From Sulfurovum indicum (GTDB taxonomy: Bacteria > Campylobacterota > Campylobacteria > Campylobacterales > Sulfurovaceae), in NCBI RefSeq assembly GCF_014931715.1, contig NZ_CP063164.1, forward strand, positions 1,488,001-1,552,000: a stretch of DNA of 64,000 bases. The letters are read 5' to 3'. The notes beneath the pieces were generated by a model. The model was not told the origin of the DNA. It searched no databases and worked only from the letters and a program-made list of their open reading frames with translations. Position 1 is the first letter of the stretch, and each line of letters begins with the position of its first letter. A program made the position numbers and the translations under genes. Shown piece by piece: positions 2,386-18,037 of the stretch.

Positions 2386-3840
2386 TTACAAAAAGTCACC
2401 TTTGATCGACAGAATACCCTTTTGGATCATTCGTGCCATAAACGATGATATATTATTGTCTTGGGTAGGCGCGATCGTATTGAGCAGTGCAAAATCTTCT
2501 GTCATTGTATTAAGGAAGTTTGTAGTGAAACAACCTTTTTGAAACTCTTCATTGCCAAGAACAGCTTTGTGCAGTGCAATATTCGTTTTTATCCCATCAA
2601 TGTAGTACTCATCCAGCGCCCTCTGTGCTTTTTTTATTACACCTTCCCAATCCAATGCCCATACAATCAGCTTGGCAACCATTGAGTCATAGTGCGGCGG
2701 TATCGTATAACCGCTGTAAATACCACTGTCAAGTCTTACACCTGGACCACCAGGGGTCAAATACTCACCTATCGTACCAAAAGAGGGCATAAACTCTTTT
2801 TGCGGATCTTCGGCATTAATACGGAACTCGATCGCATACCCTCTGAAAGATATCTCCTCCTGCAGAAACTGCAGCTTATCACCCTCTGCAATCTGTATCA
2901 TCCGCTGAATCAAGTCTACTCCTGTAGTGATCTCCGTTACCGGATGCTCCACCTGTATACGTGTGTTCATCTCAATGAAATAGATCTCATCATCCTCATC
3001 TACGAGAAACTCTATGGTTCCAACACTCTCATACCCAAGCTTGTAGATCGCTTTTTGTGCTATACGGAAAAGCTCTTTGCGTGTCTCCTGGTTGAGACGG
3101 GGAGAAGGAGAGATCTCGATCACCTTCTGATGCCGTCTCTGGATAGAGCAGTCCCTCTCTCCAAGATGTACGACATTGCCATATTTGTCAGCAATGATCT
3201 GCACTTCGATATGTCTAGGATTCCTGATATATTTTTCGACGAACAGATCACCGTTGCCAAAATACTTTTCCGCTTCAGCTCTGGCATTCTCGAATGCAGA
3301 GGCAAACCCCTCTTCACTCTCTACGATACGCATCCCTCTCCCACCGCCTCCATAGGCAGCTTTAATAATAACAGGATAGCCTATTCGTTGTGCAACCTCC
3401 ATAGCCTCCTGAACATCATATACCGGTGTGGTCGTACCCTCTATCACCGGTACACCGATCTCCTTCATCTTCTCTTTGGAAGCGATCTTGTCACCAAAGA
3501 GTGCAATATGCTCCGCTTTTGGACCGACAAAGGTCAGACCGTTCTTCTCACATGCTTTTGCAAACTCGGCATTTTCAGAGAGAAAGCCGTAACCCGGGTG
3601 TACAGCATCACATCTATGCTGTTTTGCAACTACAATGATATTCTCATAATCAAGATATACCTGTACAGGATGTCCTTTCATTTCTATGGACTGATCAGCT
3701 TTTTTAACCCATACCCCATCCTTGTCTGCCTCCGAATGTACTACGACACTTATAATGCCAAGTTCCTTACACGCACGTATCAATCTCAGTGCGATCTCTC
3801 CGCGATTTGCGATCAAAAGTTTATGAATTTTCTTTTTCAT
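2386..3840 (-). CDS. Biotin carboxylase subunit (AccC / PycA / CfiB family)
   Basis: A 484-residue biotin carboxylase: N-terminal biotin-carboxylase domain (KLLIANRGEIALRLIRACKE), ATP-grasp core with the glycine-rich KAAYGGGGRGMRIV, the ERDCSIQRRHQKVIE bicarbonate/biotin segment and EMNTRIQVEHPVTE, and a C-terminal domain. It carboxylates biotin on a carrier protein using ATP and bicarbonate. Campylobacterota usually have two such proteins, one for acetyl-CoA carboxylase and one for a two-subunit pyruvate or 2-oxoglutarate carboxylase. At 484 residues it is longer than the roughly 450 of E. coli AccC, which leans towards the 2-oxoacid type (inference). No carboxyltransferase or BCCP gene lies beside it. 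The ATG is preceded by GGAGC-like bases. Confidence 0.88.
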   Translation of the reverse strand: MKKKIHKLLIANRGEIALRLIRACKELGIISVVVHSEADKDGVWVKKADQSIEMKGHPVQVYLDYENIIVVAKQHRCDAVHPGYGFLSENAEFAKACEKNGLTFVGPKAEHIALFGDKIASKEKMKEIGVPVIEGTTTPVYDVQEAMEVAQRIGYPVIIKAAYGGGGRGMRIVESEEGFASAFENARAEAEKYFGNGDLFVEKYIRNPRHIEVQIIADKYGNVVHLGERDCSIQRRHQKVIEISPSPRLNQETRKELFRIAQKAIYKLGYESVGTIEFLVDEDDEIYFIEMNTRIQVEHPVTEITTGVDLIQRMIQIAEGDKLQFLQEEISFRGYAIEFRINAEDPQKEFMPSFGTIGEYLTPGGPGVRLDSGIYSGYTIPPHYDSMVAKLIVWALDWEGVIKKAQRALDEYYIDGIKTNIALHKAVLGNEEFQKGCFTTNFLNTMTEDFALLNTIAPTQDNNISSFMARMIQKGILSIKGDFL

Positions 3841-3952
3841 GTTCGGTGCTCCTTTTTTAGTACCGCCATTATAAAACAGTTACCAAGATAGTTCTACACC
3901 TTTTTTGACTTATAAATTATCCTTTTTTGTAAAAAAAATTATCTAAAACAGA

Positions 3953-6625: not shown

Positions 6626-7819
6626 ATGTTTGAAGTAGCGGTCAAAATGCTGATGCATGACAGAACCAAATTTCTTGGACTTTTTACAGGTATTGGCTTT
6701 ACTGCATTTTTAGTGACATTTGCCATGGCATATTTTGCAGGATTTATGACAAGAGGTTTTGCACTGGTGAGTGAAAATCCCTCTGGCAATGTCTGGGTAA
6801 TGGACCCTGCTGTCAACTCAACAGAAGCAACGATCAACATGAGTGATGCGTCTCTGGGACTTGTTCGCAGTGTCAAAGGGGTAAACTATGCTGTCCCTTT
6901 CTATATAAGTAACGTAACAGCCAGGTTTCCAAATGGACATTTTCAGTCATTTCAGATGATCGGTGTAGATGACGCTACATTGAGCGGTACCCCAGAACCG
7001 GAAAACGGCTTAAATGCTGCCCTTCTGCATATGCCAGACAGCATCATTGTCGACAGTGGCGGAAGCAGTGGCAAGCTTCAGACACCACTGCATCAAAAAG
7101 ATATATGGCCGTATGACGGGGCACACCTTGATGCACCTACACGAAAACTAAGATATGGAGACGAGTTGCTCATAAATGACAAAAGGGTGGTAATAAGAGG
7201 TCTCTCCTCAACTATTCCAAGATTTCCGCCAAGACCATTGATCTATACAACACAGTCAAACTTCAAGCGACTCAATCCCGGAGAAAACAGGTACATCACT
7301 TTTATTATGGTAAAGGGAGAAAAAAATATTTCAGCCAGTACTTTAGCCGATAATATCTCTAGGCAGACAGGACTAAAGGCCATTACCAGTGATGCATTCA
7401 AAAGAGAGACCGTCCTGTGGTTTCTTGTTAACTCCGAAGATGTAGGCGATATGATCAACATGATTATCCTTGCAATGCTTGTAGGTTTTGGAGTCACCGG
7501 TGTCATGCTCTATATGTTCACCTATGAAAATCTCAGACAATATGCTGTTCTAAAAGCGATGGGAGCATCCAGTAAGCAATTGGTGACTATGGTGTTCACA
7601 CAGGCTTTTATAGGTGTAATAATCGGAAGCGGTACAGGTATAGGAGTATCTGCTTTATTAGGTGGGAGTGCAGCCAGTGCAGATTTTCCGTTTCGCATGA
7701 TGTGGTTTGCCCCTTTGCTTGGCTTTTTGGGCGTTCTGATCGTAAGTATTACTGCAGCTTTTATCAGTGTAAGAGCGATTCTGCACATGGAACCGGGTAT
7801 TGTATTTTCCCAAAGATAA
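6626..7819 (+). CDS. ABC transporter permease, FtsX-like (DevC type)
   Basis: 397 residues: one N-terminal helix (FLGLFTGIGFTAFLVTFAMAYF), a periplasmic domain of about 220 residues, then three C-terminal helices (MINMIILAMLVGFGVTGVML, the AFIGVIIGSGTGIGVS region, and FAPLLGFLGVLIVSITAAFI). The YAVLKAMGASSKQLVTMV coupling segment before the second of these is characteristic of FtsX/MacB/DevC permeases. With the preceding ATPase and HlyD adaptor it forms a complete inner-membrane exporter. Substrate unknown; cyanobacterial DevABC exports glycolipids, other members export peptides or drugs. Confidence 0.85.
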   Translation: MFEVAVKMLMHDRTKFLGLFTGIGFTAFLVTFAMAYFAGFMTRGFALVSENPSGNVWVMDPAVNSTEATINMSDASLGLVRSVKGVNYAVPFYISNVTARFPNGHFQSFQMIGVDDATLSGTPEPENGLNAALLHMPDSIIVDSGGSSGKLQTPLHQKDIWPYDGAHLDAPTRKLRYGDELLINDKRVVIRGLSSTIPRFPPRPLIYTTQSNFKRLNPGENRYITFIMVKGEKNISASTLADNISRQTGLKAITSDAFKRETVLWFLVNSEDVGDMINMIILAMLVGFGVTGVMLYMFTYENLRQYAVLKAMGASSKQLVTMVFTQAFIGVIIGSGTGIGVSALLGGSAASADFPFRMMWFAPLLGFLGVLIVSITAAFISVRAILHMEPGIVFSQR

Positions 7820-7930
7820 TAGATCACTATTAGCCTGTATCTTTGGAATACTTGTCTCTTCCACCTTTCCAAATAATCTTGTTATTATCCTGAATACCGA
7901 TAAATGACAGAATCATAATCATATTTGTCT

Positions 7931-8485
7931 CTAACTCTCTGTATCATTATTCGTCAGCTGTACTTCCTTCTGGTGGTGTATAGGTCTATGATTCTTTAAT
8001 TCGTCTAAACGATCATTATCACCATTTTCTTTAGCCTCTTTAATCTCTTCACGCCAGGACTTCATCTTTTCATGATACACTTTGTTAGCTTCTCTTTTAG
8101 CCTGACGTTCAGAAAGACGCTTTTCTTTTTTCTCCTTTTGTTCATAGTAACGCTCCAAAGCTTCAGAGCCGCGTTCTCGTGCTAATGCTTCTTTATGTGC
8201 CTCTGCTCTTTCCAGAAAATCTTCTTTGGAATCATCTTTTTTATCCATATCAGACAATATAGCATATTCGTCATTTTTTAAAACAGGCATGGCAGGTTTT
8301 AGAGATTTTTCTTTGGGCTTAGGAGTCTGTATCTTCTGTTTGCTGTCAGTTTCTGTAATCTCATTTTGTACGACGGTCTTTTTTGTTGCAGCAAGCTCTT
8401 CCTTTTTGTCCGATAGTGATATAAAAACAGCTAAAGCTGCGATAAAAAGAAAAACTCCTGCAATACGCCCTATACGTGTATTCAT
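7931..8485 (-). CDS. Hypothetical membrane-anchored charged coiled-coil protein
   Basis: 184 residues with one N-terminal hydrophobic helix (IAGVFLFIAALAVFISL) and then an almost entirely charged tail rich in Glu, Lys and Arg. The stretch from about residue 95 to 165 (EALERYYEQKEKKEKRLSER and beyond) is predicted by eye to be a long helix or coiled coil. No catalytic motif or known domain is recognised. It probably sits in the periplasm, anchored to the inner membrane. It follows the same direction as the large lipoprotein gene upstream but is separated by about 130 bases that hold a hairpin and an inverted repeat, so it may be its own unit. Confidence 0.6.
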   Translation of the reverse strand: MNTRIGRIAGVFLFIAALAVFISLSDKKEELAATKKTVVQNEITETDSKQKIQTPKPKEKSLKPAMPVLKNDEYAILSDMDKKDDSKEDFLERAEAHKEALARERGSEALERYYEQKEKKEKRLSERQAKREANKVYHEKMKSWREEIKEAKENGDNDRLDELKNHRPIHHQKEVQLTNNDTES

Positions 8486-8520
8486 TTTTCACATACCCTC
8501 TATTTCGTAATATTTTTTCA

Positions 8521-8567
8521 ATATTCTGATCAATACTATATTATTTGTTTAGAACTGATCAGAATAT
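8521..8567. repeat. 12-bp perfect inverted repeat, operator or hairpin
   Basis: ATATTCTGATCA at 8521-8532 is matched exactly by its inverse TGATCAGAATAT at 8556-8567, with 23 AT-rich bases between. It lies just upstream of the hypothetical gene that starts at 8485. The half-site arrangement suits a regulator-binding site for that gene at least as well as a terminator, because no T-run follows. Confidence 0.5.
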
Positions 8568-8573
8568 GAAGTA

Positions 8574-8600
8574 GAAAGAGACAGATAATCCGTCTCTTTC
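8574..8600 (-). terminator. Stem-loop after the Gly-rich lipoprotein gene
   Basis: GAAAGAGAC and GTCTCTTTC form a perfect 9-bp stem with a 9-base loop, starting about 15 bases past the stop codon of the lipoprotein gene. There is no strong T-run on the minus strand after it, so termination is plausible but not certain. Confidence 0.45.
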
Positions 8601-8615
8601 AGCAACATCGTTTTT

Positions 8616-11063
8616 TTAATTAAGTATGCCGCTGATCGGCGTTACATTGACAAAATCAAAGTAGATATCGCCGACATTACCCACTGTTCCGCTTCCACCG
8701 ATTCCTGCAGAAACATCAATCACAGATGCCGTATTGGTCGTATAGGTGATTTCAGACAGAAGATCTACGTATCCACCATCACTGTTATCTGCTGTACCAT
8801 TGGAAGCACCGCCATTAAAGTAGAGATCTCCACTGTTAGTTACTTTGCCTCCTGCATACACATACAGGTAACCAGAGTCATCACCTTGAGCATTAAGCCC
8901 CGTACCGTTACCGCCGGTTGCTATAATAGCACCACTGTTAAGTATATCATAGCTGGAGTACATTTCTATAGAGTCATCAGCCCCTTGACCGGCAGTAGAA
9001 GTACTTCCTTCAGCATCTCCACCCAGTGCAATAATTTCACCACTGTTCTCAACCGCATCATGACCGTAGAAGTAAAGACCACCACTGTTTCCTCCATCCA
9101 GACCAAGTCCTCCGGAGATATCAATGGCTCCACTGTTAAGTACTTTGGTCGTACCAACATAGAATTCACCTTCTGCCTCAAACTCTATATAACCTCCTCT
9201 ACCGCCGGTCCCGTTTTCAGCATAACCACCTCTTGCGATGATCTGTACTTCATTAATAATGGAGCCAACCGGAACAGCAGTATAGTCATCTCCTGTCCAC
9301 GCATCTTCTGTATAAGCTTCCACATTTCCTGCATGCCCACCGCTGATATTGCCGTCACCTCCAGAAACATCAAATGAACTGTAGCCAAGAAACTGAATTT
9401 TACCGACAGGAGGAAAATCTATATCTGAATAAGATGTTTCAACCTCTACATTACCCCCGTAACCACCATTAGTGTCACCATCACCACCATTCACTTCAAT
9501 ATTGCCGCTGATCTGTACAACTCCTGAAGCAACCTCTTCACCGTATCCATAATCATCTCCTTCACCATCGAGATATACATACACATCACCGGCATCTCCT
9601 CCATTTCCAGATACACTTAGGAGTATTCCACTGTTCGCAGGAATAATACCGGAGCTTTTGGCATTTCCACCATTGGCATAGATATTACCGGAGGTTCTGG
9701 TACTTCCACCTCCATTAAGATAAAGATATACAGTCGATCCGTTTCCGGCATTTCCGTTTCCGGCATCACCCCCATTAGCATAGATATTACCTGAGTTAAG
9801 CAGCTCTCCCACATAGCTTCCCTCTCCGGGATAGAAATCAATGTCACCGGCATCTCCCCCATTGGTACTTCCGTCACCTCCGCTGGTATTGATATCTGCA
9901 GAGTTATAAATGCTTGCCACATAAGATTCTATGTATATATAACCACCTTGTCCGCCATTACCTGCAGAACCATTACCTCCTATGGCTAAAATTGGAGCGG
10001 TATTGTAAAAACCTGTTTCTGATTCAAGAGAAAGCTGACCAGCATTTCCACCTATAGCACCATTTCCTCCACTTGCATTGATCGCTTGACTTCCGGTATG
10101 AATAAACACACCATCATACGCACTTATATACACGTGACCATAACCACTCCCTGGTTCTACAGCAGCATTTCCGCCATCTCCGCTTCCAACACCATTTCCG
10201 CCACTGGCATCAATAGCACCATTTACTTGAACCAAAGCATAATACACATTGATTCTTACATAACCACCATCTCCACCACGTTCATTTCCACTGCTTCCAT
10301 TATCTCCGGATGTATCGACTGAACCATTGGCTCCAATGATCACTGAATTGTCATTAGGAAGATAAAGGTATAAAGCACCTTTGTCCCTTACTGTCGCAGG
10401 AGCACTATGTCTCGTATCAATTGTACCACCTGCTGTTGTCAATGCTGCAGTTTTAAGTGTCCCGTTTATGATCAAGTCACCATATAATTTAAAACGGGCC
10501 TGATCCTGACCTGTAGAATCATCATTGTCAGCATCACTGTTATCATCATCAACATTAAGCCCCAATACTACTGTTACTCCTTCATCAATTTTAAGGCCTG
10601 TGACACGATTTGTAATGTTATTATCACAGGTATCACCACTGTTTACAGCCTCACAAAGATATTGAGTATTTCCATTTATCAAATAAAGAGTACCTGCTGT
10701 TGTCGGTTCATTTCCACTATCTACTGTGGTGATATTGGTATCAACTGAAATTATCTTACCGTTAGTGCCCAAGTTATCTTCATGCGGATAGCTCGGAACA
10801 GTGAATGCAGTATCAACAGTACCACTTGTAAGAAATTCTACATTCATATATCCATCAGCATAGATTGCAGAACTATCAGCATTGCCACCGCTACCACTCA
10901 TTCCATTCCCCCCTTTTGCCTGAATAGTAAATTCCCCGACTGTAACAACACTACTACTGTCACTGCTGCTACCGCCACCACACGCAGTTAATGCCAATAC
11001 TGCCGCTGTAGCTGCGAATAGTGCTATCGGGTTTCTGCTTCCCTTTAAAAAATAACTCTTCAT
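8616..11063 (-). CDS. Large glycine-rich repeat surface lipoprotein
   Basis: 815 residues. The N-terminus is a lipoprotein signal with lipobox LALTAC followed by GGGSSSDSSS, so Cys28 or so would be lipidated. The rest is built of degenerate repeats of roughly 20-35 residues with the cores GGNG, GGDGG or GGDAG next to NSG and short beta segments such as YIYIES, IYANGGDAG and VYLYLNGG. This pattern suggests a stacked beta-helix or Gly-rich beta structure. There is no catalytic motif. Composition is very rich in Gly, Asn, Asp and Ser and almost free of Lys and Arg in the repeat region. An orphan response regulator is transcribed divergently from the same 190-base intergenic region and may control it (inference). 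Confidence 0.75.
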   Translation of the reverse strand: MKSYFLKGSRNPIALFAATAAVLALTACGGGSSSDSSSVVTVGEFTIQAKGGNGMSGSGGNADSSAIYADGYMNVEFLTSGTVDTAFTVPSYPHEDNLGTNGKIISVDTNITTVDSGNEPTTAGTLYLINGNTQYLCEAVNSGDTCDNNITNRVTGLKIDEGVTVVLGLNVDDDNSDADNDDSTGQDQARFKLYGDLIINGTLKTAALTTAGGTIDTRHSAPATVRDKGALYLYLPNDNSVIIGANGSVDTSGDNGSSGNERGGDGGYVRINVYYALVQVNGAIDASGGNGVGSGDGGNAAVEPGSGYGHVYISAYDGVFIHTGSQAINASGGNGAIGGNAGQLSLESETGFYNTAPILAIGGNGSAGNGGQGGYIYIESYVASIYNSADINTSGGDGSTNGGDAGDIDFYPGEGSYVGELLNSGNIYANGGDAGNGNAGNGSTVYLYLNGGGSTRTSGNIYANGGNAKSSGIIPANSGILLSVSGNGGDAGDVYVYLDGEGDDYGYGEEVASGVVQISGNIEVNGGDGDTNGGYGGNVEVETSYSDIDFPPVGKIQFLGYSSFDVSGGDGNISGGHAGNVEAYTEDAWTGDDYTAVPVGSIINEVQIIARGGYAENGTGGRGGYIEFEAEGEFYVGTTKVLNSGAIDISGGLGLDGGNSGGLYFYGHDAVENSGEIIALGGDAEGSTSTAGQGADDSIEMYSSYDILNSGAIIATGGNGTGLNAQGDDSGYLYVYAGGKVTNSGDLYFNGGASNGTADNSDGGYVDLLSEITYTTNTASVIDVSAGIGGSGTVGNVGDIYFDFVNVTPISGILN

Positions 11064-11250
11064 CTTTTTCTCCTTTTAAACTTCAATGTTTATTAACCTT
11101 TCGGCACAATATTTATCCTCTTATCAAAAGTATAGACTTTAAAAGTGACTTATAAATTAATTTTCATTATAAAATTTATTTTTATTTATATTTTAAGTTT
11201 TTTAGTTATTATGGATTATAGTGACGTACAGAGTGAAGGAAACTACATAG

Positions 11251-11976
11251 ATGAAAATCCTGATCATTAATCATGAATACCAGTCGAATACAGAGATTGA
11301 AAAAGAATTAAAGCACAGAAGTTTTTCTACAAATTATCAAATTTTTGCTACCTTTAACAAAAATAAAACAGATATGTCAAGTTATGACCTTGTCTTGCTG
11401 GATGTACCTCTTATGAGTGATGAGAGCTATATGATCATAAAAAAAATAAGAGCTTCAGACAAACATATTCCCATTATTGTACTCAGTCCTTTCTATCAGA
11501 TAAGAAATATAGAAAAGTGCTTTATTTTTGGGTGTAATGACTATCTTAAAAAACCTGTTGTCATAGATGAACTGATCTTCAAACTAAACTTTTGGCTCAA
11601 TTTTAAAACATATCAGAATACTCAGACAATCCGTTTAAAGAATGGATTTTCCTATGATCCCGGACATCATGAACTGCTAAAAGATAAAATACCCATTTCT
11701 TTAACTGCCAAAGAAAAACTCTTTATAGAGATATTGGTCAAGAATAGAGGATGGTTCGTCCCTACTCCTACTATCATCCGGTATCTATGGGACAATTATG
11801 CTGCCCCTAACCAGTTAAGGGTCCTTGTATACAAATTACGTCAAAAAGCAGGTAAAGAACTGATCACTTCTATGAAGGGGATAGGCTATAAGATAGATCC
11901 GGAGAGTGTAAAAAAAACCATCTGGAGAGCAGAGCGAAGAAAACGTTCTGCTGCAGTGTTTCCGCATAAAAGATAA
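11251..11976 (+). CDS. OmpR-type response regulator, orphan, with altered acidic pocket
   Basis: 241 residues: receiver domain (1-120) with phospho-acceptor Asp51 in YDLVLLDVPLM, the conserved Ser in IIVLSPF and Lys in YLKKPV, followed by a winged-helix DNA-binding domain (about 135-220; SLTAKEKLFIEILVKNRGWF, LRVLVYKLRQKAG, MKGIGYKI). The usual pair of acidic residues after the first beta strand is replaced by Asn-His-Glu (INHE), so Mg binding and phosphorylation may be weakened. No histidine kinase gene is adjacent. A 20-residue basic tail follows the winged helix. It faces the glycine-rich lipoprotein gene, which is an obvious candidate target. Confidence 0.82.
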   Translation: MKILIINHEYQSNTEIEKELKHRSFSTNYQIFATFNKNKTDMSSYDLVLLDVPLMSDESYMIIKKIRASDKHIPIIVLSPFYQIRNIEKCFIFGCNDYLKKPVVIDELIFKLNFWLNFKTYQNTQTIRLKNGFSYDPGHHELLKDKIPISLTAKEKLFIEILVKNRGWFVPTPTIIRYLWDNYAAPNQLRVLVYKLRQKAGKELITSMKGIGYKIDPESVKKTIWRAERRKRSAAVFPHKR

Positions 11977-12076
11977 CTGAACTATCTATCAAAAGCAGAA
12001 AACGCAACTTCATTCCAGTCAACATTAACGGGCTATTCCAATGCAGAGTGTGCCTCTTTTACCGGAGCTGTCTCCC

Positions 12077-12084
12077 GGGGGGGG
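12077..12084 (+). repeat. Poly-G tract (G8) between convergent genes
   Basis: Eight consecutive G residues preceded by CCC, about 10 bases past the stop codon of the PhnA-family gene and about 100 past that of the response regulator. Poly-G tracts drive phase variation in many Campylobacterota, but here the tract lies outside either open frame as read. Confidence 0.6.
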
Positions 12085-12092
12085 AGGAGTAT

Positions 12093-12602
12093 TTAGAGTT
12101 TTTTCAGAAACTCCGTTTTCAGAAAGATCATCGTACCGTTGACCTTTCCCTGAATGTGTGTCGGATCATCCGCTACCATTCTGATGTTCTTCACTGTTGT
12201 TCCCTGCTTCGCGGTAAAACCGGCACCTTTGACAGGAAGGTCTTTTATGATGCTGACCGAATCACCTTCGTTCAGTACAGTCCCGTTACTGTCACGTACA
12301 ACCGGTACATCTGCACTGACCAGTCCAGCCTCAGCCCACTCTCTGATATCATCTTCAAGATACATCATATCAAGCTGATCCTGTGCACCGAGTCTGGTAA
12401 GCAGTCTGTATGCTACCACCTGTACAGCGGGTTCTGTACTCCACATACTCTCATGCAGACAGTTCCAGTGTTTCTCATTTTGTGCAGGATCTTCAATACT
12501 CGCTGCACAGGTGCTGCAGATCGTAATGGTCTCATCTTTGGGAGCTACAGTATATTCAACCAAGCCTTCCGTACTGTTACAAAGATCACATTGTGTACTC
12601 AT
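12093..12602 (-). CDS. PhnA/YjdM domain protein (zinc-ribbon)
   Basis: An N-terminal zinc ribbon with CDLC and CSTC pairs (residues about 5 and 30) is followed by the PhnA domain (VVRDSNGTVLNEGDSVSIIK, DLPVKGAGFTAKQGTTVKNI). The family was named for phosphonate use in E. coli, but most members, including YjdM, have no proven role in it and no phn genes are seen here. ATG 12602 is chosen over ATG 12608 because an AGGA motif stands 5 bases before it. The frame converges on the response regulator gene. Confidence 0.85.
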   Translation of the reverse strand: MSTQCDLCNSTEGLVEYTVAPKDETITICSTCAASIEDPAQNEKHWNCLHESMWSTEPAVQVVAYRLLTRLGAQDQLDMMYLEDDIREWAEAGLVSADVPVVRDSNGTVLNEGDSVSIIKDLPVKGAGFTAKQGTTVKNIRMVADDPTHIQGKVNGTMIFLKTEFLKKL

Positions 12603-12630
12603 AATCATCCTTTAGAAAAATTACCGTATT

Positions 12631-13119
12631 TTACTCTATTAGTTTTAATCTACCCAAAAGTCCTGCTGTGGTGGTATAGCCTACCTCAGCAAACCTCAGC
12701 TTCCCTTCTGCATCATAGATAAAGGTAGTAGGGAAAACCCGTATATGAAACTGTTTCGCCCAACTTCCGTTCTCATCGTTCAATACCCTGAAATGCAGAC
12801 CGTTCTTTTCCATATAGGCATTGACCGCCGCATTCTCTCCGGAATTCACCGCAACAGTCAAGACTTCATACTCTTTGGAAAGGGTCTCAATATTGGACGC
12901 TTCGATCTGACACACCCTGCACCATGTTGCCCAAAAATGCAGAAGAACAGGCTTCCCTCTTTTCAACGTGTACAGACTGCCGTCAAGGAGTGTCACAGTT
13001 ACCGGAGGAAGTTGTTCAGAGGAGAGGTCCGGCTTTCGAAGATAACTTATAATATTAGATAATATAAATAGAACTGTCATGCCTATTGCGATCTCTCTGA
13101 ATATTTTTTTCAGTTTCAA
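12631..13119 (-). CDS. TlpA/ScsD-like membrane-anchored thioredoxin-fold protein
   Basis: 162 residues: an N-terminal membrane anchor (IAIGMTVLFILSNIISYL), then a thioredoxin fold with active site WATWCRVCQ and the cis-proline region VFPTTFIYDAEG. It would face the periplasm and reduce or shuttle disulfides, for instance in cytochrome c maturation or protection of copper- or peroxide-damaged proteins. The frame opens with TTG at 13119, only about 10 bases past the stop of a truncated copy of the fructosamine-kinase gene; an internal ATG at 13080 would remove half the anchor. In the ancestral order it probably followed the intact kinase gene now at 18278. Confidence 0.82.
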   Translation of the reverse strand: MKLKKIFREIAIGMTVLFILSNIISYLRKPDLSSEQLPPVTVTLLDGSLYTLKRGKPVLLHFWATWCRVCQIEASNIETLSKEYEVLTVAVNSGENAAVNAYMEKNGLHFRVLNDENGSWAKQFHIRVFPTTFIYDAEGKLRFAEVGYTTTAGLLGRLKLIE

Positions 13120-13855: not shown

Positions 13856-16800
13856 ATGAAAAAACTTCTCCTCTACGCAACTATAGCTGTCGCGACATCT
13901 ATACTTTGGGGACGCGCTGAGCCTGCTGCACACCACAACTCACTTATCTCAAGCATCTTTCATCTCAATAACAGCCTTCGGGACAGCAAGGGTGTTATCT
14001 CTGACCTAAAACTGAGCGGCTCTGCCAGCTTTGATGACAGTAATCTGGACTGGATGAACAACCCTTCTGGTTCCGCACTGAAATTTAATGGTGTGAATGA
14101 CCAGGCCGATGTCATCTTCAGAGTTGACCCCTACCTTACAGAAGGCTGGAGTGACAAGGATATTGCCGAAGTAAGCCTCGAAGGCTGGTTCTATTTTGAC
14201 GCCATTGACCCTAAAGATGACAACAAACTGGAACTTTTATATATGCGCCAAGGTTGGGAATATGGTTTTGAAATCATCCGTCACCCATGGACAAACAAAC
14301 TAAGTGTTTATTTGGGAAGCCATGAAGATTCCGGAGAGACGGTTAATAATGCCCTTAGTCTCAGACAGTGGCATCACATCAAAATCATCCACAACCGCAC
14401 ATACTATCTGCTTTATATAGATGGGAAAGAACTCCTCAAGGTAGCACATGGACGAGAAAAGTTAAATCTTTATAATGCCCAGCAAGATATCCGTCTAAGT
14501 TTTGGTGATTTTCACGGATGGGCAGACGAGATCCGTTTTAATCTGGATTTTGACACTGACAATGATGGTATCCCCAACAAGCGTGACCCAGACGATGACG
14601 GCGATGGGGTCAACGATAAGCAGGATGCTTTCCCACTCGACAGCAGTGAGTGGTCAGATAACGATAATGATGGTATTGGTGACAATGCAGATCATGATGA
14701 CGACAACGACGGTATCGCCGATGAACGGGATTTGCAGCCGCTGAATGCAAGCAATGCCAATGCCGATACGGACGGTGATGGTTTTAGTGACCTTGTAGAG
14801 TATCAGAGTGGCTCTCTGCCAAATGACGCAAGCTCTTCCCCGGAAAGTACTCTTCCGGACAGAGGAGTCTCCCCGGTACTAAGTGACAGGCAGCATCGAT
14901 CCCTGGAGTCTCTAATTCAAATGCAGAAGCCGGGTGAAGTGCGTATACATGCTGTTTCCAAAGAGTGGCTACGCTTGACCCTGGTCCCGGAACGAAATGA
15001 AAACAGTACAGAATTTATCCGCCAACCGGTTGACATCACCAAGGCAGAAGACCCTGCCATGTTTACTGTCAAAGATGAACAGAACAATTCCCTGTCCATA
15101 GATAAAACCGGATTAAAGAGACGCACTTTTTACGCTCCGCGTCGAGTAGGCGACCTACGGATTGCCGAGAACATCTTCATTCATCTAAACCAGCCACTTA
15201 TAGCAGGGCAGCCATATACATTGAATGTCGATACCAACCTCACAGGAACTTCTATTCATACCACTTTCCGCTTTGAACCGGAATCCCAACTGAGTGACCT
15301 GTTACATGTAGACCCTTACGGATTTCGTCCTGCAGACAAAAAGAAAGGTTACCTTGGACTGATGATGGGTAGCGCCGGCGAATATGAACCCACCGATCTA
15401 AATTTTGAAGTAGTGCGCAGCAGTGACAATCAAGTGGTTTTCCAGGGTACAGGTACACTGGAAATCTCAGAAGGCTGGCGTGATACCTTTACGAACCATC
15501 CCTATCACAAAGTTTATCAGCTGGACTTTTCGGAACTGACTACAGCAGGTGAGTATTACCTGCGCCACAGTACCGGGATCAGCCAGCCATTTGTCATTCA
15601 CAGCAACGTCTATCGCAATTGCATGAATACACTGGCACTGGGCATGTATCACCAGCGGAGAGGTGAAGCATTGGTTGAGCCCTTTACCCGCTTCACCCAC
15701 AAAGCAACCATCGAAGATCAAACCTATGTCTACGACAGCAGTGACCTCGATCCTTTTCTGACCAGCTTGCGTAACTGGGGAGACGGCATCAAATACCCTA
15801 CTACACTGGAGGGTCAACATATCGATATCAGTGGTGGTCATATGGATGCAGGAGACTATTCGCCCTATACCTGGAACAGCTCCATGACAGCATGGACACT
15901 CATTACTACACTTGATGTATATGGTGAGCGGGTTCAGCATGACAATCTGGGTATACCGGAATCTGGTGATGGCATCCCTGACCTGCTACAGGAATTCCTC
16001 ATCGAGATCAACTGGCTCAAGGATATGCAGGACCCTGTAGATGGTGGTGTATTTGGCATGAGTAAGCCCAAAGGTATGAGCTACCAATACACCATGCCGG
16101 GCGAGATGGAGGATCTGACCCGTTATCTATCACCAAAGGACACTACCGTTACCGGTGGCTATGCAGCAGCATTAGCAAGAGCAGCCCGTAGTCCGATATT
16201 GAAGCAATACGATCCAGCACTGGCGGAACTACTCAAGAAACGTGCTATTAAAGCATGGGAGTGGCTTGAAGCCAACCCGGGGATGCATGGCTACCACCAC
16301 TACGGTATCGCTTCTGCCAGTGAAGGTGATGAGGGGCATGAACATGCTCGCGCATGGGCAGCCATTGAACTGTATGCATTGACCGGGGACGAACGTTACC
16401 ACAATGCTTTTATGGAATATCACAAACCCCTGTTACGTGATGATGGTGTCTATTTAATGAATAAAGGCTATGGCTATGTCAACCGTACTTTAGCCTTATG
16501 GGAGCACGACCAGATCGCTTACCCAGTAGATGCTGATCTAAAACAGACTTCAGTGAATCGCTTTCGGGAAGCAGTGGATCAATATGTAAGTATAAGCAAT
16601 AAAACTCCTTATGATTTGGCTGTCAACGATGTAGTCAAACGATGGAATATCATCGGCTGGTTCTTTCCAGTCAGTGATTTTGGCTGGGACCTTCTGCTTG
16701 CACATGAGCTCTATGGTGATCTGGATTACCTGGAAACAGCACAGGACCAGATTCATTTCACTCTGGGTGGCAATCCCTCTAATATGAGCTATATTACCGG

Positions 16801-18037
16801 TATGGGATACAAACGCTTACGCTCCATTGTAGATCAAGAGTCCTATTATGATGGTATTGAGGCACCTGTCACCGGCCTACCTGTTTCACCAATGGTCACT
16901 GGGTACACATGGAGCAACACTTACACACGGGATATTAGTCAATATTCCTGGCCGCTGGACAACCCGGACCGGAATAGTGAAAGTGAAGTTTATGGTCTTC
17001 TTGAAACCGCTTATGACGGCTGGAATATCAATGGGGAATTCACCATTGAAAAGATGGCAGGGATGTTGACAAGCATGGCCATATTAACCCCTCACAACAA
17101 TAAGCAATATACTTACCCTGAGTTCACTCTCACTGTAGAATCATTGGCAAACGGACTGTTTCAGCCAAAACTGAACTTCAAAGACGGGGAACCACAAAAC
17201 TACAGCATCCTCTGGAGTGAGAACGACCAACATGTCAGTGCCGATCCGAATTATCTACTGCAACAGGATTTCAGCAAGCCTGTATGGAAACTTTCCGCCG
17301 AGGTCGTCACCCATGAAGGGCGACGCTGGTATGCCGAAACTCGCATCAATACCCGTGATTATACGAATACAGATATCCCATTGGAAGCCTTTTCCAATGA
17401 GAGTGTTTCTACCCTTTTTCATCTAGACGGCAGCCTCAGTGACAGTAACAGTATCATGGCAGATCTGAACCTGATGGGCAATGCCCATTTTGACAACCAT
17501 AACCTGTACTGGATGCAGACTCCTTCTGGTTCGGCACTAAGATTTGACGGCTTTGGTGATGAGGCGAAGACAACTTTTTATGTAGAAAACTACCTTTCTG
17601 AAGGGAAACGCTTTGAAGATATTGCCGAAGTGAGTATAGGCGGTCTCTTTTTCTTTGACACTCTAGGACCTGTAAACGAGAATGCCTTATTTCTTTTTAG
17701 TTTACAACAGTCTTGGGCTAACCGTACAGAACTGATACGCTATGCCTGGACCAAACAGATACTGGCAGCTCTAGGTAAAATACAAGATGAACGAGATGAT
17801 ATCAATGAGGCACTAAGTCTGCATAAATGGCACTATATCCAAATGATATATAACCGCACTCACTACATCCTAAAGGTCGATGGCAAAGAGATCGTCAAGG
17901 TTACACATGATAATGGAGAGAAACTCCTTGATCATCGTATTGTGGCTCTGAAATTCGGTAACTTCTACGGATGGGCAGATGAGATCTACTTTAGTATGAA
18001 GTTTGATGATGGAAGCATCATTACACCTTCCAACTAG
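13856..18037 (+). CDS. Secreted glycoside hydrolase family 9 protein with duplicated LamG-like domains
   Basis: 1393 residues. Order by eye: signal peptide (1 to about 22); LamG/concanavalin-like domain (about 30-230); Ca-binding thrombospondin type 3 repeats (DTDNDGIPNKRDPDDDGDG and on, about 232-315); linker; CelD_N-type Ig-like domain (about 355-585); GH9 (alpha/alpha)6 barrel (about 590-1090); a short linker domain; and a second LamG-like domain (about 1175-1390) clearly related to the first (FHLNNSLRDS versus FHLDGSLSDS, GWADEI in both). The catalytic-base motif appears as GGHMDAGDYSPY and a late NGEFTIEKMAG likely holds the acid Glu. GH9 enzymes cut beta-1,4-glucans and some related glycans; the exact substrate is unknown. 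Such an enzyme is odd in an otherwise chemolithotroph-like genome and probably came by transfer. Confidence 0.88.
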   Translation: MKKLLLYATIAVATSILWGRAEPAAHHNSLISSIFHLNNSLRDSKGVISDLKLSGSASFDDSNLDWMNNPSGSALKFNGVNDQADVIFRVDPYLTEGWSDKDIAEVSLEGWFYFDAIDPKDDNKLELLYMRQGWEYGFEIIRHPWTNKLSVYLGSHEDSGETVNNALSLRQWHHIKIIHNRTYYLLYIDGKELLKVAHGREKLNLYNAQQDIRLSFGDFHGWADEIRFNLDFDTDNDGIPNKRDPDDDGDGVNDKQDAFPLDSSEWSDNDNDGIGDNADHDDDNDGIADERDLQPLNASNANADTDGDGFSDLVEYQSGSLPNDASSSPESTLPDRGVSPVLSDRQHRSLESLIQMQKPGEVRIHAVSKEWLRLTLVPERNENSTEFIRQPVDITKAEDPAMFTVKDEQNNSLSIDKTGLKRRTFYAPRRVGDLRIAENIFIHLNQPLIAGQPYTLNVDTNLTGTSIHTTFRFEPESQLSDLLHVDPYGFRPADKKKGYLGLMMGSAGEYEPTDLNFEVVRSSDNQVVFQGTGTLEISEGWRDTFTNHPYHKVYQLDFSELTTAGEYYLRHSTGISQPFVIHSNVYRNCMNTLALGMYHQRRGEALVEPFTRFTHKATIEDQTYVYDSSDLDPFLTSLRNWGDGIKYPTTLEGQHIDISGGHMDAGDYSPYTWNSSMTAWTLITTLDVYGERVQHDNLGIPESGDGIPDLLQEFLIEINWLKDMQDPVDGGVFGMSKPKGMSYQYTMPGEMEDLTRYLSPKDTTVTGGYAAALARAARSPILKQYDPALAELLKKRAIKAWEWLEANPGMHGYHHYGIASASEGDEGHEHARAWAAIELYALTGDERYHNAFMEYHKPLLRDDGVYLMNKGYGYVNRTLALWEHDQIAYPVDADLKQTSVNRFREAVDQYVSISNKTPYDLAVNDVVKRWNIIGWFFPVSDFGWDLLLAHELYGDLDYLETAQDQIHFTLGGNPSNMSYITGMGYKRLRSIVDQESYYDGIEAPVTGLPVSPMVTGYTWSNTYTRDISQYSWPLDNPDRNSESEVYGLLETAYDGWNINGEFTIEKMAGMLTSMAILTPHNNKQYTYPEFTLTVESLANGLFQPKLNFKDGEPQNYSILWSENDQHVSADPNYLLQQDFSKPVWKLSAEVVTHEGRRWYAETRINTRDYTNTDIPLEAFSNESVSTLFHLDGSLSDSNSIMADLNLMGNAHFDNHNLYWMQTPSGSALRFDGFGDEAKTTFYVENYLSEGKRFEDIAEVSIGGLFFFDTLGPVNENALFLFSLQQSWANRTELIRYAWTKQILAALGKIQDERDDINEALSLHKWHYIQMIYNRTHYILKVDGKEIVKVTHDNGEKLLDHRIVALKFGNFYGWADEIYFSMKFDDGSIITPSN

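Follow-up and report, generated by a model that had tools for sequence, protein, structure and literature searches.

The stretch of DNA analysed here (the window) comprises 64,000 nucleotides of the Sulfurovum indicum genome (NZ_CP063164.1, positions 1,488,001 to 1,552,000), in which a gene for a glycine-rich lipoprotein and a gene for an OmpR/PhoB-type response regulator diverge from a short shared intergenic region. We analysed the two genes, the region between them and their counterparts in related genomes, where G000 denotes the source genome of the window, G073 a genome of the same genus and G036 a genome of another genus. The locus contains the following features, in which pLDDT stands for the predicted local distance difference test score.

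8616–11063, minus strand: lipoprotein gene, 815 aa (from the open reading frame, composition, lipobox and homologues)
10386–10931, minus strand: N-terminal non-repetitive region of the lipoprotein, about residues 45–226 (from alignment; conserved in relatives; pLDDT mostly below 50)
8673–10385, minus strand: predicted right-handed beta-helix of glycine-rich repeats, about residues 227–797 (AlphaFold2, VIA-align)
11129–11156, minus strand: predicted lipoprotein promoter, TTTATA-16-TATACT (consensus match only)
11135–11155, minus strand: candidate regulator site TTATAAGTCACTTTTAAAGTC, 21 bp, with halves TTATAAGTC and TTTAAAGTC (by eye)
11185–11212, plus strand: predicted regulator promoter, TTTATA-16-TATTAT (consensus match only)
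11251–11976, plus strand: OmpR/PhoB-type response regulator with a pseudo-receiver domain, 241 aa (Pfam, residues, definition in PMC12632262)
11692–11892, plus strand: winged-helix DNA-binding domain Trans_reg_C, regulator residues 148–214 (Pfam)

The lipoprotein opens with a signal peptide (residues 1–27) that ends in a lipobox cysteine, the hallmark of bacterial lipoproteins: LTA-C28 followed by GGG, with LTAC and Cys28 again in G073 and LSGC and Cys21 in G036. Glycine accounts for 162 residues (19.9%) and lysine plus arginine for only 12 and 10 (2.7%), alongside 96 aspartates and glutamates and an isoelectric point of 4.05; beyond residue 230 the imbalance is 69 acidic (D/E) versus 9 basic (K/R) residues in 585. 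The motif [ILVFM]x[ASVIFTN]xGG[DNGAYL][GADY] occurs 13 times, whereas 500 shuffled versions of the mature sequence contain 0.92 copies on average and 5 at most; 10 of the 12 intervals between the copies of the lipoprotein measure 30–44 aa. The G036 homologue carries only four copies (shuffles: mean 0.30, maximum 3). An initial annotation, made from the letters of the DNA, had described an 815-residue lipoprotein built of GG-rich repeats with few basic residues, and the coordinates, the motif copies and the composition all agree with it. Pfam gave the protein no match at E values up to 1, NCBIfam offered nothing below E 0.14, and its profile found no match among PDB sequences.

Structure prediction of the repeats, which the same annotation had proposed as a check, yielded a predicted parallel, right-handed beta-helix. 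AlphaFold2, given the mature lipoprotein and one relative (a two-row alignment), returned a model with a mean pLDDT of 68 and a predicted template modelling score of 0.76 over its whole length, in which 44 of the 57 ten-residue blocks of mature residues 201–770 reached a pLDDT of at least 70 and the fold of mature residues 1–127 was not resolved. VIA-align was run on the 135 chains ranked highest by Foldseek; among these, the best match was the hemopexin-binding protein 4rm6 (Z 22.0, 280 residues, root-mean-square deviation 4.2) and the second was EtpA 8vbb (Z 20.9), both of them TpsA proteins. An antifreeze protein, the HxuA secretion domain and an autotransporter came next, with beta-helices of transport, tailspike and lyase proteins lower down. 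Foldseek against viral structures gave no match under E 0.001. The beta-helix fold is typical of many adhesins and is found in lyases and tailspikes as well, so that the fold does not prove adhesion.

The regulator joins a receiver domain (PF00072 REC, 40.6 bits, cut-off 30.2) to a winged-helix domain (PF00486 Trans_reg_C, 35.8 bits, cut-off 26.2), which is the architecture of the OmpR/PhoB family. Its residues 6–9 read I-N-H-E, leaving both positions of the acidic pair (N7 and H8) non-acidic, with D51, S79 and K101 kept. By the definition in excerpts of a review (PMC12632262), a receiver counts as a pseudo-receiver once any of the five residues DD, D, T and K is missing, and N7 and H8 at the DD positions place the G000 regulator in this class; it is not an aspartate-less receiver (ALR), since D51 is present, and the G036 orthologue has Ser there. 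By alignment, the five canonical pocket positions are N, H, D, S and K in G000 and S, S, S, D and P in G036, the most distant orthologue, in which all five are thus altered. G073 has D at the first of them (D-H-E versus N-H-E in G000). Judging from these alignments, the deeper pocket decay in G036 appears to fit control without classical phosphorylation. The K+2 residue is Val, which the review excerpts count among the residues that shift CheY towards active conformations, and the D+4 and T+1 residues are Met and Pro, unlike the usual receiver residues given there. The AlphaFold model of the regulator (pLDDT 47) was not used for any conclusion.

The regulator is also an orphan, with no kinase gene nearby. 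HATPase_c, a family not confined to kinases, has 28 matches in the genome, none of which falls inside the 64-kb window, and the nearest lies about 25 kb from the regulator and is adjoined by another receiver gene. Both statements of the initial annotation about this protein, that its acidic pocket is partly lost (NHE) and that it has no kinase, therefore held: N7 and H8 are non-acidic beside the remaining D51, S79 and K101, and no histidine-kinase ATPase is encoded within the 64 kb.

The lipoprotein–regulator pair is rare but is kept together in both relatives that have the lipoprotein. The lipoprotein was found in 3 of 175 family genomes (G000 itself, G073 and G036), and the same three were recovered among 397 sampled phylum genomes; identity reaches 65% over residues 1–814 in G073 and, in G036, 35% over residues 13–229 and 46% over 724–801. 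A profile added one weak match, in G053 (5.6e-7, 64 N-terminal positions). In all three lipoprotein genomes the regulator gene is divergently adjacent to the lipoprotein gene, and the pair, on whose conservation the initial annotation had staked its proposal of a common module, is accordingly not lost. The regulator search scored up to 16 candidates per genome and took the best places. The G000 and G073 regulators are 59–71% identical, and the three form a clade of their own (support 100/99) in a tree of 34 rows, for which 38 sources were tried besides the window and the G073 fragment and six gave no row. No further copy of the pair was found in the source genome and none matched on PLSDB plasmids. 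In a wider contig collection, the regulator scan confirmed none of 29 candidate stretches and the lipoprotein profile found the G073 contig only, missing G036, which indicates gaps in that scan.

The surroundings of the pair differ in part between the genomes. On the lipoprotein side, the homologue of an ABC permease gene is on another contig in G073; on the regulator side, phnA lies within 10 kb in both G000 and G073 (9 kb from the regulator in the latter). G036 has other flanking genes on both sides, with metG (by eye) following the regulator. A mobile island was considered and rejected, as the nearby phnA is common to G000 and G073 and only G036 differs on both flanks. Homopolymer phase variation of the regulator was rejected as well: a run of eight G lies just ahead of the regulator start in G073 and has no counterpart at that place in G000. 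The sole such run in the window (12077–12084) is 3' of the regulator, before the phnA-like gene, and 41 of 100 shuffles have one.

The two genes are separated, start to start, by 187 bp (11064–11250) with 22% G+C. Promoter consensus matches number 19 in positions 7800–12200, compared with 13.0 (standard deviation 3.5) in shuffles. The candidate regulator site, laid out as TTATAAGTC-ACT-TTTAAAGTC with halves alike at 7 of 9 positions and a 12-bp period (by eye), lies directly upstream of the predicted lipoprotein −10 element. In each of the three genomes, a similar stretch covers the predicted lipoprotein promoter at its −35 region, and a core, AATTNNTAAGNCA, stands in the matching place in all three intergenic regions. 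The 19-mer shared by G000 and G036 agrees at 17 of 19 positions, a value reached by none of 120 shuffled pairs. Overall, these comparisons provide fair, not strong, evidence for a conserved intergenic site.

On balance, we lean slightly towards a model in which a pseudo-receiver regulator is dedicated to one outer-membrane beta-helix lipoprotein. After export through Sec and lipidation of Cys28, the lipoprotein would be anchored in the outer membrane as an acidic, glycine-rich, right-handed beta-helix rod. It would be built like the passenger of a two-partner-secretion (TPS) adhesin or autotransporter, with a lipid anchor taking the place of the barrel, and might serve in adhesion or in a surface matrix. 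The divergent OmpR-family regulator would control the lipoprotein gene locally, dimerising and binding the shared intergenic region at a site that overlaps the −35 element of the lipoprotein promoter. Binding would not need aspartyl phosphate, in which case the output would be set by the amount of regulator, with probable autoregulation, or by an unknown partner.

Several observations weigh against this model. Only inspection by eye revealed the half-site repeat, which is not among the results of the direct-repeat scan. No second copy of the 21-bp site occurs in the 2.2-Mb genome at up to 3 mismatches (reversed-pattern control, 0), but at this tolerance uniqueness is expected of a 21-mer, and the search shows only the lack of a second close copy. 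The chance numbers for the core (0.31, 0.05 and 0.00 per source) are no independent test, since the pattern was derived from the same three sequences, and the core AATTTATAAGTCA has a second copy in the window, at 3906–3918, upstream of gene 2386–3840, there without a second half-site. The G073–G036 19-mer agrees at only 15 of 19 positions, which 12 of 120 shuffles reached, and the best 25-mers agree at 19 of 25 both for G000–G036 (3 of 120 shuffles) and for G073–G036 (0 of 120). On the regulator side, the tree carries a long-branch warning and includes the G073 copy as a fragment only. In G073, a draft metagenome-assembled genome, the regulator gene (L043:9046–9769) is interrupted, being split between two overlapping frames, which argues against a strict need for the regulator unless it is a sequencing error. 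The likeness of G000 and G073 could also reflect common descent. The G036 regulator has a Lys one residue ahead of the aligned K position, and D51, S79 and K101 are intact in G000, so that weak phosphorylation would still be possible. For the lipoprotein model, Foldseek alone was weak, with a best E value of 4.5e-3.

Two further features, which go beyond the initial annotation, lie on the lipoprotein side: a co-directional small gene and, in the relatives, a pair of ATP-grasp genes. The small gene is as follows.

7931–8485, minus strand: small charged protein, 184 aa, with one N-terminal hydrophobic segment; the next gene downstream of the lipoprotein gene

Its orthologue occupies the same place in G073 (L043:5799–6356, 55% identity over 99 aa), and the G036 operon has none; the protein has no family match under E 0.05. 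An inverted repeat, AAAGAGAC-GGATTATCT-GTCTCTTT, was seen by eye between the two genes (8575–8599, minus strand) and was not reported by the terminator scan. Elsewhere in the window, positions 13856–18037 encode a protein of 1393 aa that matches glycoside hydrolase family 9 at 136 bits. It also has a cellulase N-terminal domain; of its two laminin-G regions, one narrowly passes the cut-off and the other falls below it, as do TSP3 repeats.

In both relatives, the lipoprotein gene is followed downstream by two RimK-like ATP-grasp genes in tandem (L043:3798–5796 in G073 and L044:4307–6297 in G036), in G073 after the small charged gene. An ATP-grasp ligase gene, which characterises graspetide and RimK-type loci, is thus present at the locus in G073 and G036 and absent from it in G000, where the family was not found with a G073 protein query at E 1e-4 or with a profile at 1e-25. 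The family occurs in 14 of the 175 family genomes and 13 of the 397 phylum genomes. The Pfam RimK cut-off was passed by the homologues L070 and L077, and the G073 and G036 genes gave RimK, CofF or MptN matches below the cut-off only, one gene giving none. Six genomes from two families have the tandem pair downstream of a lipoprotein gene (L043, L044 and L140–L143), the lipoproteins of the four other-family genomes measuring 395–441 aa. A tree of 24 chosen rows grouped AG1 of G073 and G036 with the first tandem gene of these four genomes (97/97) and AG2 of G073 with the second (94/90; three of the four entered), and left AG2 of G036 unplaced.

Other members of the family have other exported neighbours. 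In genomes G400 and G484, an ATP-grasp gene, a DUF4915-TPR protein gene and an autotransporter gene form one run (L147:7236–15565 and L148:2475–8083), and N-S-G-T-I repeats can be made out by eye in the autotransporter passenger. The G400 locus (L147) also has a regulator gene and a kinase-like gene, both divergent from the autotransporter gene, an arrangement like that of the window but with a two-component system that is complete. Three own-genus genomes have an ornithine-cyclodeaminase-like gene, an ATP-grasp gene and a subtilase lipoprotein gene in a row (L069, L070:5643–9960 and L071:250–4308; Pfam was run for the subtilase on all three and for the ornithine-cyclodeaminase-like gene on L070 only). 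At L073, L074, L075, L081, L145 and L146, the ATP-grasp gene stands beside a gene resembling the GNAT-BKACE fusion L140:9915–11270 (Pfam on the latter only) and near small exported barrel-like proteins, and other neighbours look alanine-racemase-like or amidoligase-like by eye. Over 24 ATP-grasp loci, which are related and partly from one genome (the fragmentary G007 locus was left out), a crude sequence rule classed as surface-like 32 of the 136 genes that lie no more than three genes from the ATP-grasp gene and 6 of the 109 further off (Fisher p 6e-5). Such a gene lies near the ATP-grasp gene in 20 of the 24 loci, or 19 without the evident false positive L079:1720–2211 (by eye); L145:1929–2603 is probably another false positive, and 5 of the 51 genes of the window pass the rule. 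By these counts, the ATP-grasp family apparently tends to neighbour exported proteins. In excerpts of a graspetide paper (PMC8939145), other ATP-grasp branches are reported with lipoprotein-like proteins and OmpR regulators nearby, and neighbourhoods of this sort are therefore not new as a kind; the present combination was not found described among the titles and abstract openings covered.

Dedicated, phosphorylation-independent control competes with three other accounts. The presence of D51, S79 and K101 is what a conventional but degenerate regulator would show, with D51 phosphorylated by a distant kinase or a small phosphodonor and E9 or water replacing the lost metal ligands; the D kept at the first pocket position of G073 and the 28 HATPase_c matches elsewhere in the genome (not all necessarily kinases) favour such a regulator as well. 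However, G000 has no acidic residue at either metal-binding position, none of the five positions keeps its canonical residue in G036, and Met at D+4 and Pro at T+1 are atypical for receivers in passages of PMC12632262, and we regard this account as unlikely. Adjacency might instead come without control, the regulator acting mainly on other genes and the pair being kept by descent and a compact divergent layout. The core copy with one half-site upstream of gene 2386–3840 is consistent with that possibility, and the pairing is partly vertical, because G000 and G073 belong to one genus and share the nearby phnA on the side of the regulator. Since the pair is also kept in G036, in another genus and among different flanking genes, and the 21-bp stretch has no second close copy in the genome, adjacency without control seems doubtful to us.

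The tandem ATP-grasp genes downstream of the lipoprotein gene in G073 and G036, with none found in G000, raise the possibility that the locus is the remnant of a larger ATP-grasp system: two RimK-like ligases, since lost, would have had the lipoprotein as partner or substrate, and the pair would now be decaying or play a reduced role. The interrupted regulator gene of G073 would agree with this, but in G000 the lipoprotein and the regulator have intact frames and are 65% and 59–71% identical to their G073 counterparts, unlike genes in decay, which makes a remnant rather improbable. A wider proposal, which we hold to be a long shot, is that, in this phylum, a clade of RimK-like ATP-grasp ligases acts on exported surface proteins or makes a ligand for them, that the G000 lipoprotein outlived its ligases, and that the regulator dropped phosphorylation stepwise. 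On this very tentative proposal, the substrates would be beta-helix lipoproteins, autotransporters, subtilase lipoproteins and small barrels, receiving for example cytosolic ester cross-links or amino-acid additions before export, and the steps of pocket loss would be D-H-E in G073, N-H-E in G000 and the alteration of all five positions in G036.

Excerpts of the 2025 review (PMC12632262) call the on/off switching of bacterial pseudo-receivers a mystery. An orphan pseudo-receiver whose one candidate target is adjacent and conserved, and whose pocket has decayed to differing degrees across three orthologues, would offer a compact system for phosphorylation-independent control. The lipoprotein, which stands outside the Pfam and NCBIfam families, would join a predicted secreted-adhesin fold to a lipid anchor, and the ATP-grasp genes beside it in the relatives raise the question of chemical modification of surface proteins before export.

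Among known systems, the lipoprotein resembles TpsA adhesins in its predicted right-handed beta-helix (Z 22.0 with 4rm6 and 20.9 with 8vbb), a fold common to many beta-helix families. Unlike them, it has a lipobox, and the TPS (haemagglutination activity) domain was not found, as no Pfam family matched at E up to 1, the N-terminal region being unresolved in the model; the six proteins of 6626–13119 scanned by Pfam, the pair included, contain no TpsB partner. Autotransporter passengers (Antigen 43 and those of L147 and L148) share the beta-helix, with N-S-G-x-I repeats by eye, and the L147 and L148 autotransporters (G400 and G484) share a gene run with an ATP-grasp gene of the relatives' family; unlike classical autotransporters, the lipoprotein lacks a C-terminal PF03797 barrel detectable by Pfam. 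Membership in the TPS or autotransporter class was therefore rejected, as Pfam found neither domain. RimK-like and graspetide ligases resemble the downstream genes of G073 and G036, which were not found in G000. For the regulator, the closest parallels are HP1043 of H. pylori, CosR of C. jejuni and ChxR of Chlamydia, which, in excerpts of PMC8345958, PMC3139631 and PMC3960148 (for HP1043 and ChxR also PMC12632262), combine an OmpR/PhoB architecture with a degenerate or phosphorylation-independent receiver, a likeness drawn from these descriptions. HP1043 and CosR are called essential in the excerpts of PMC8345958, PMC3139631 and PMC3960148, whereas 3 of the 175 family genomes have the window regulator, next to a single candidate target.

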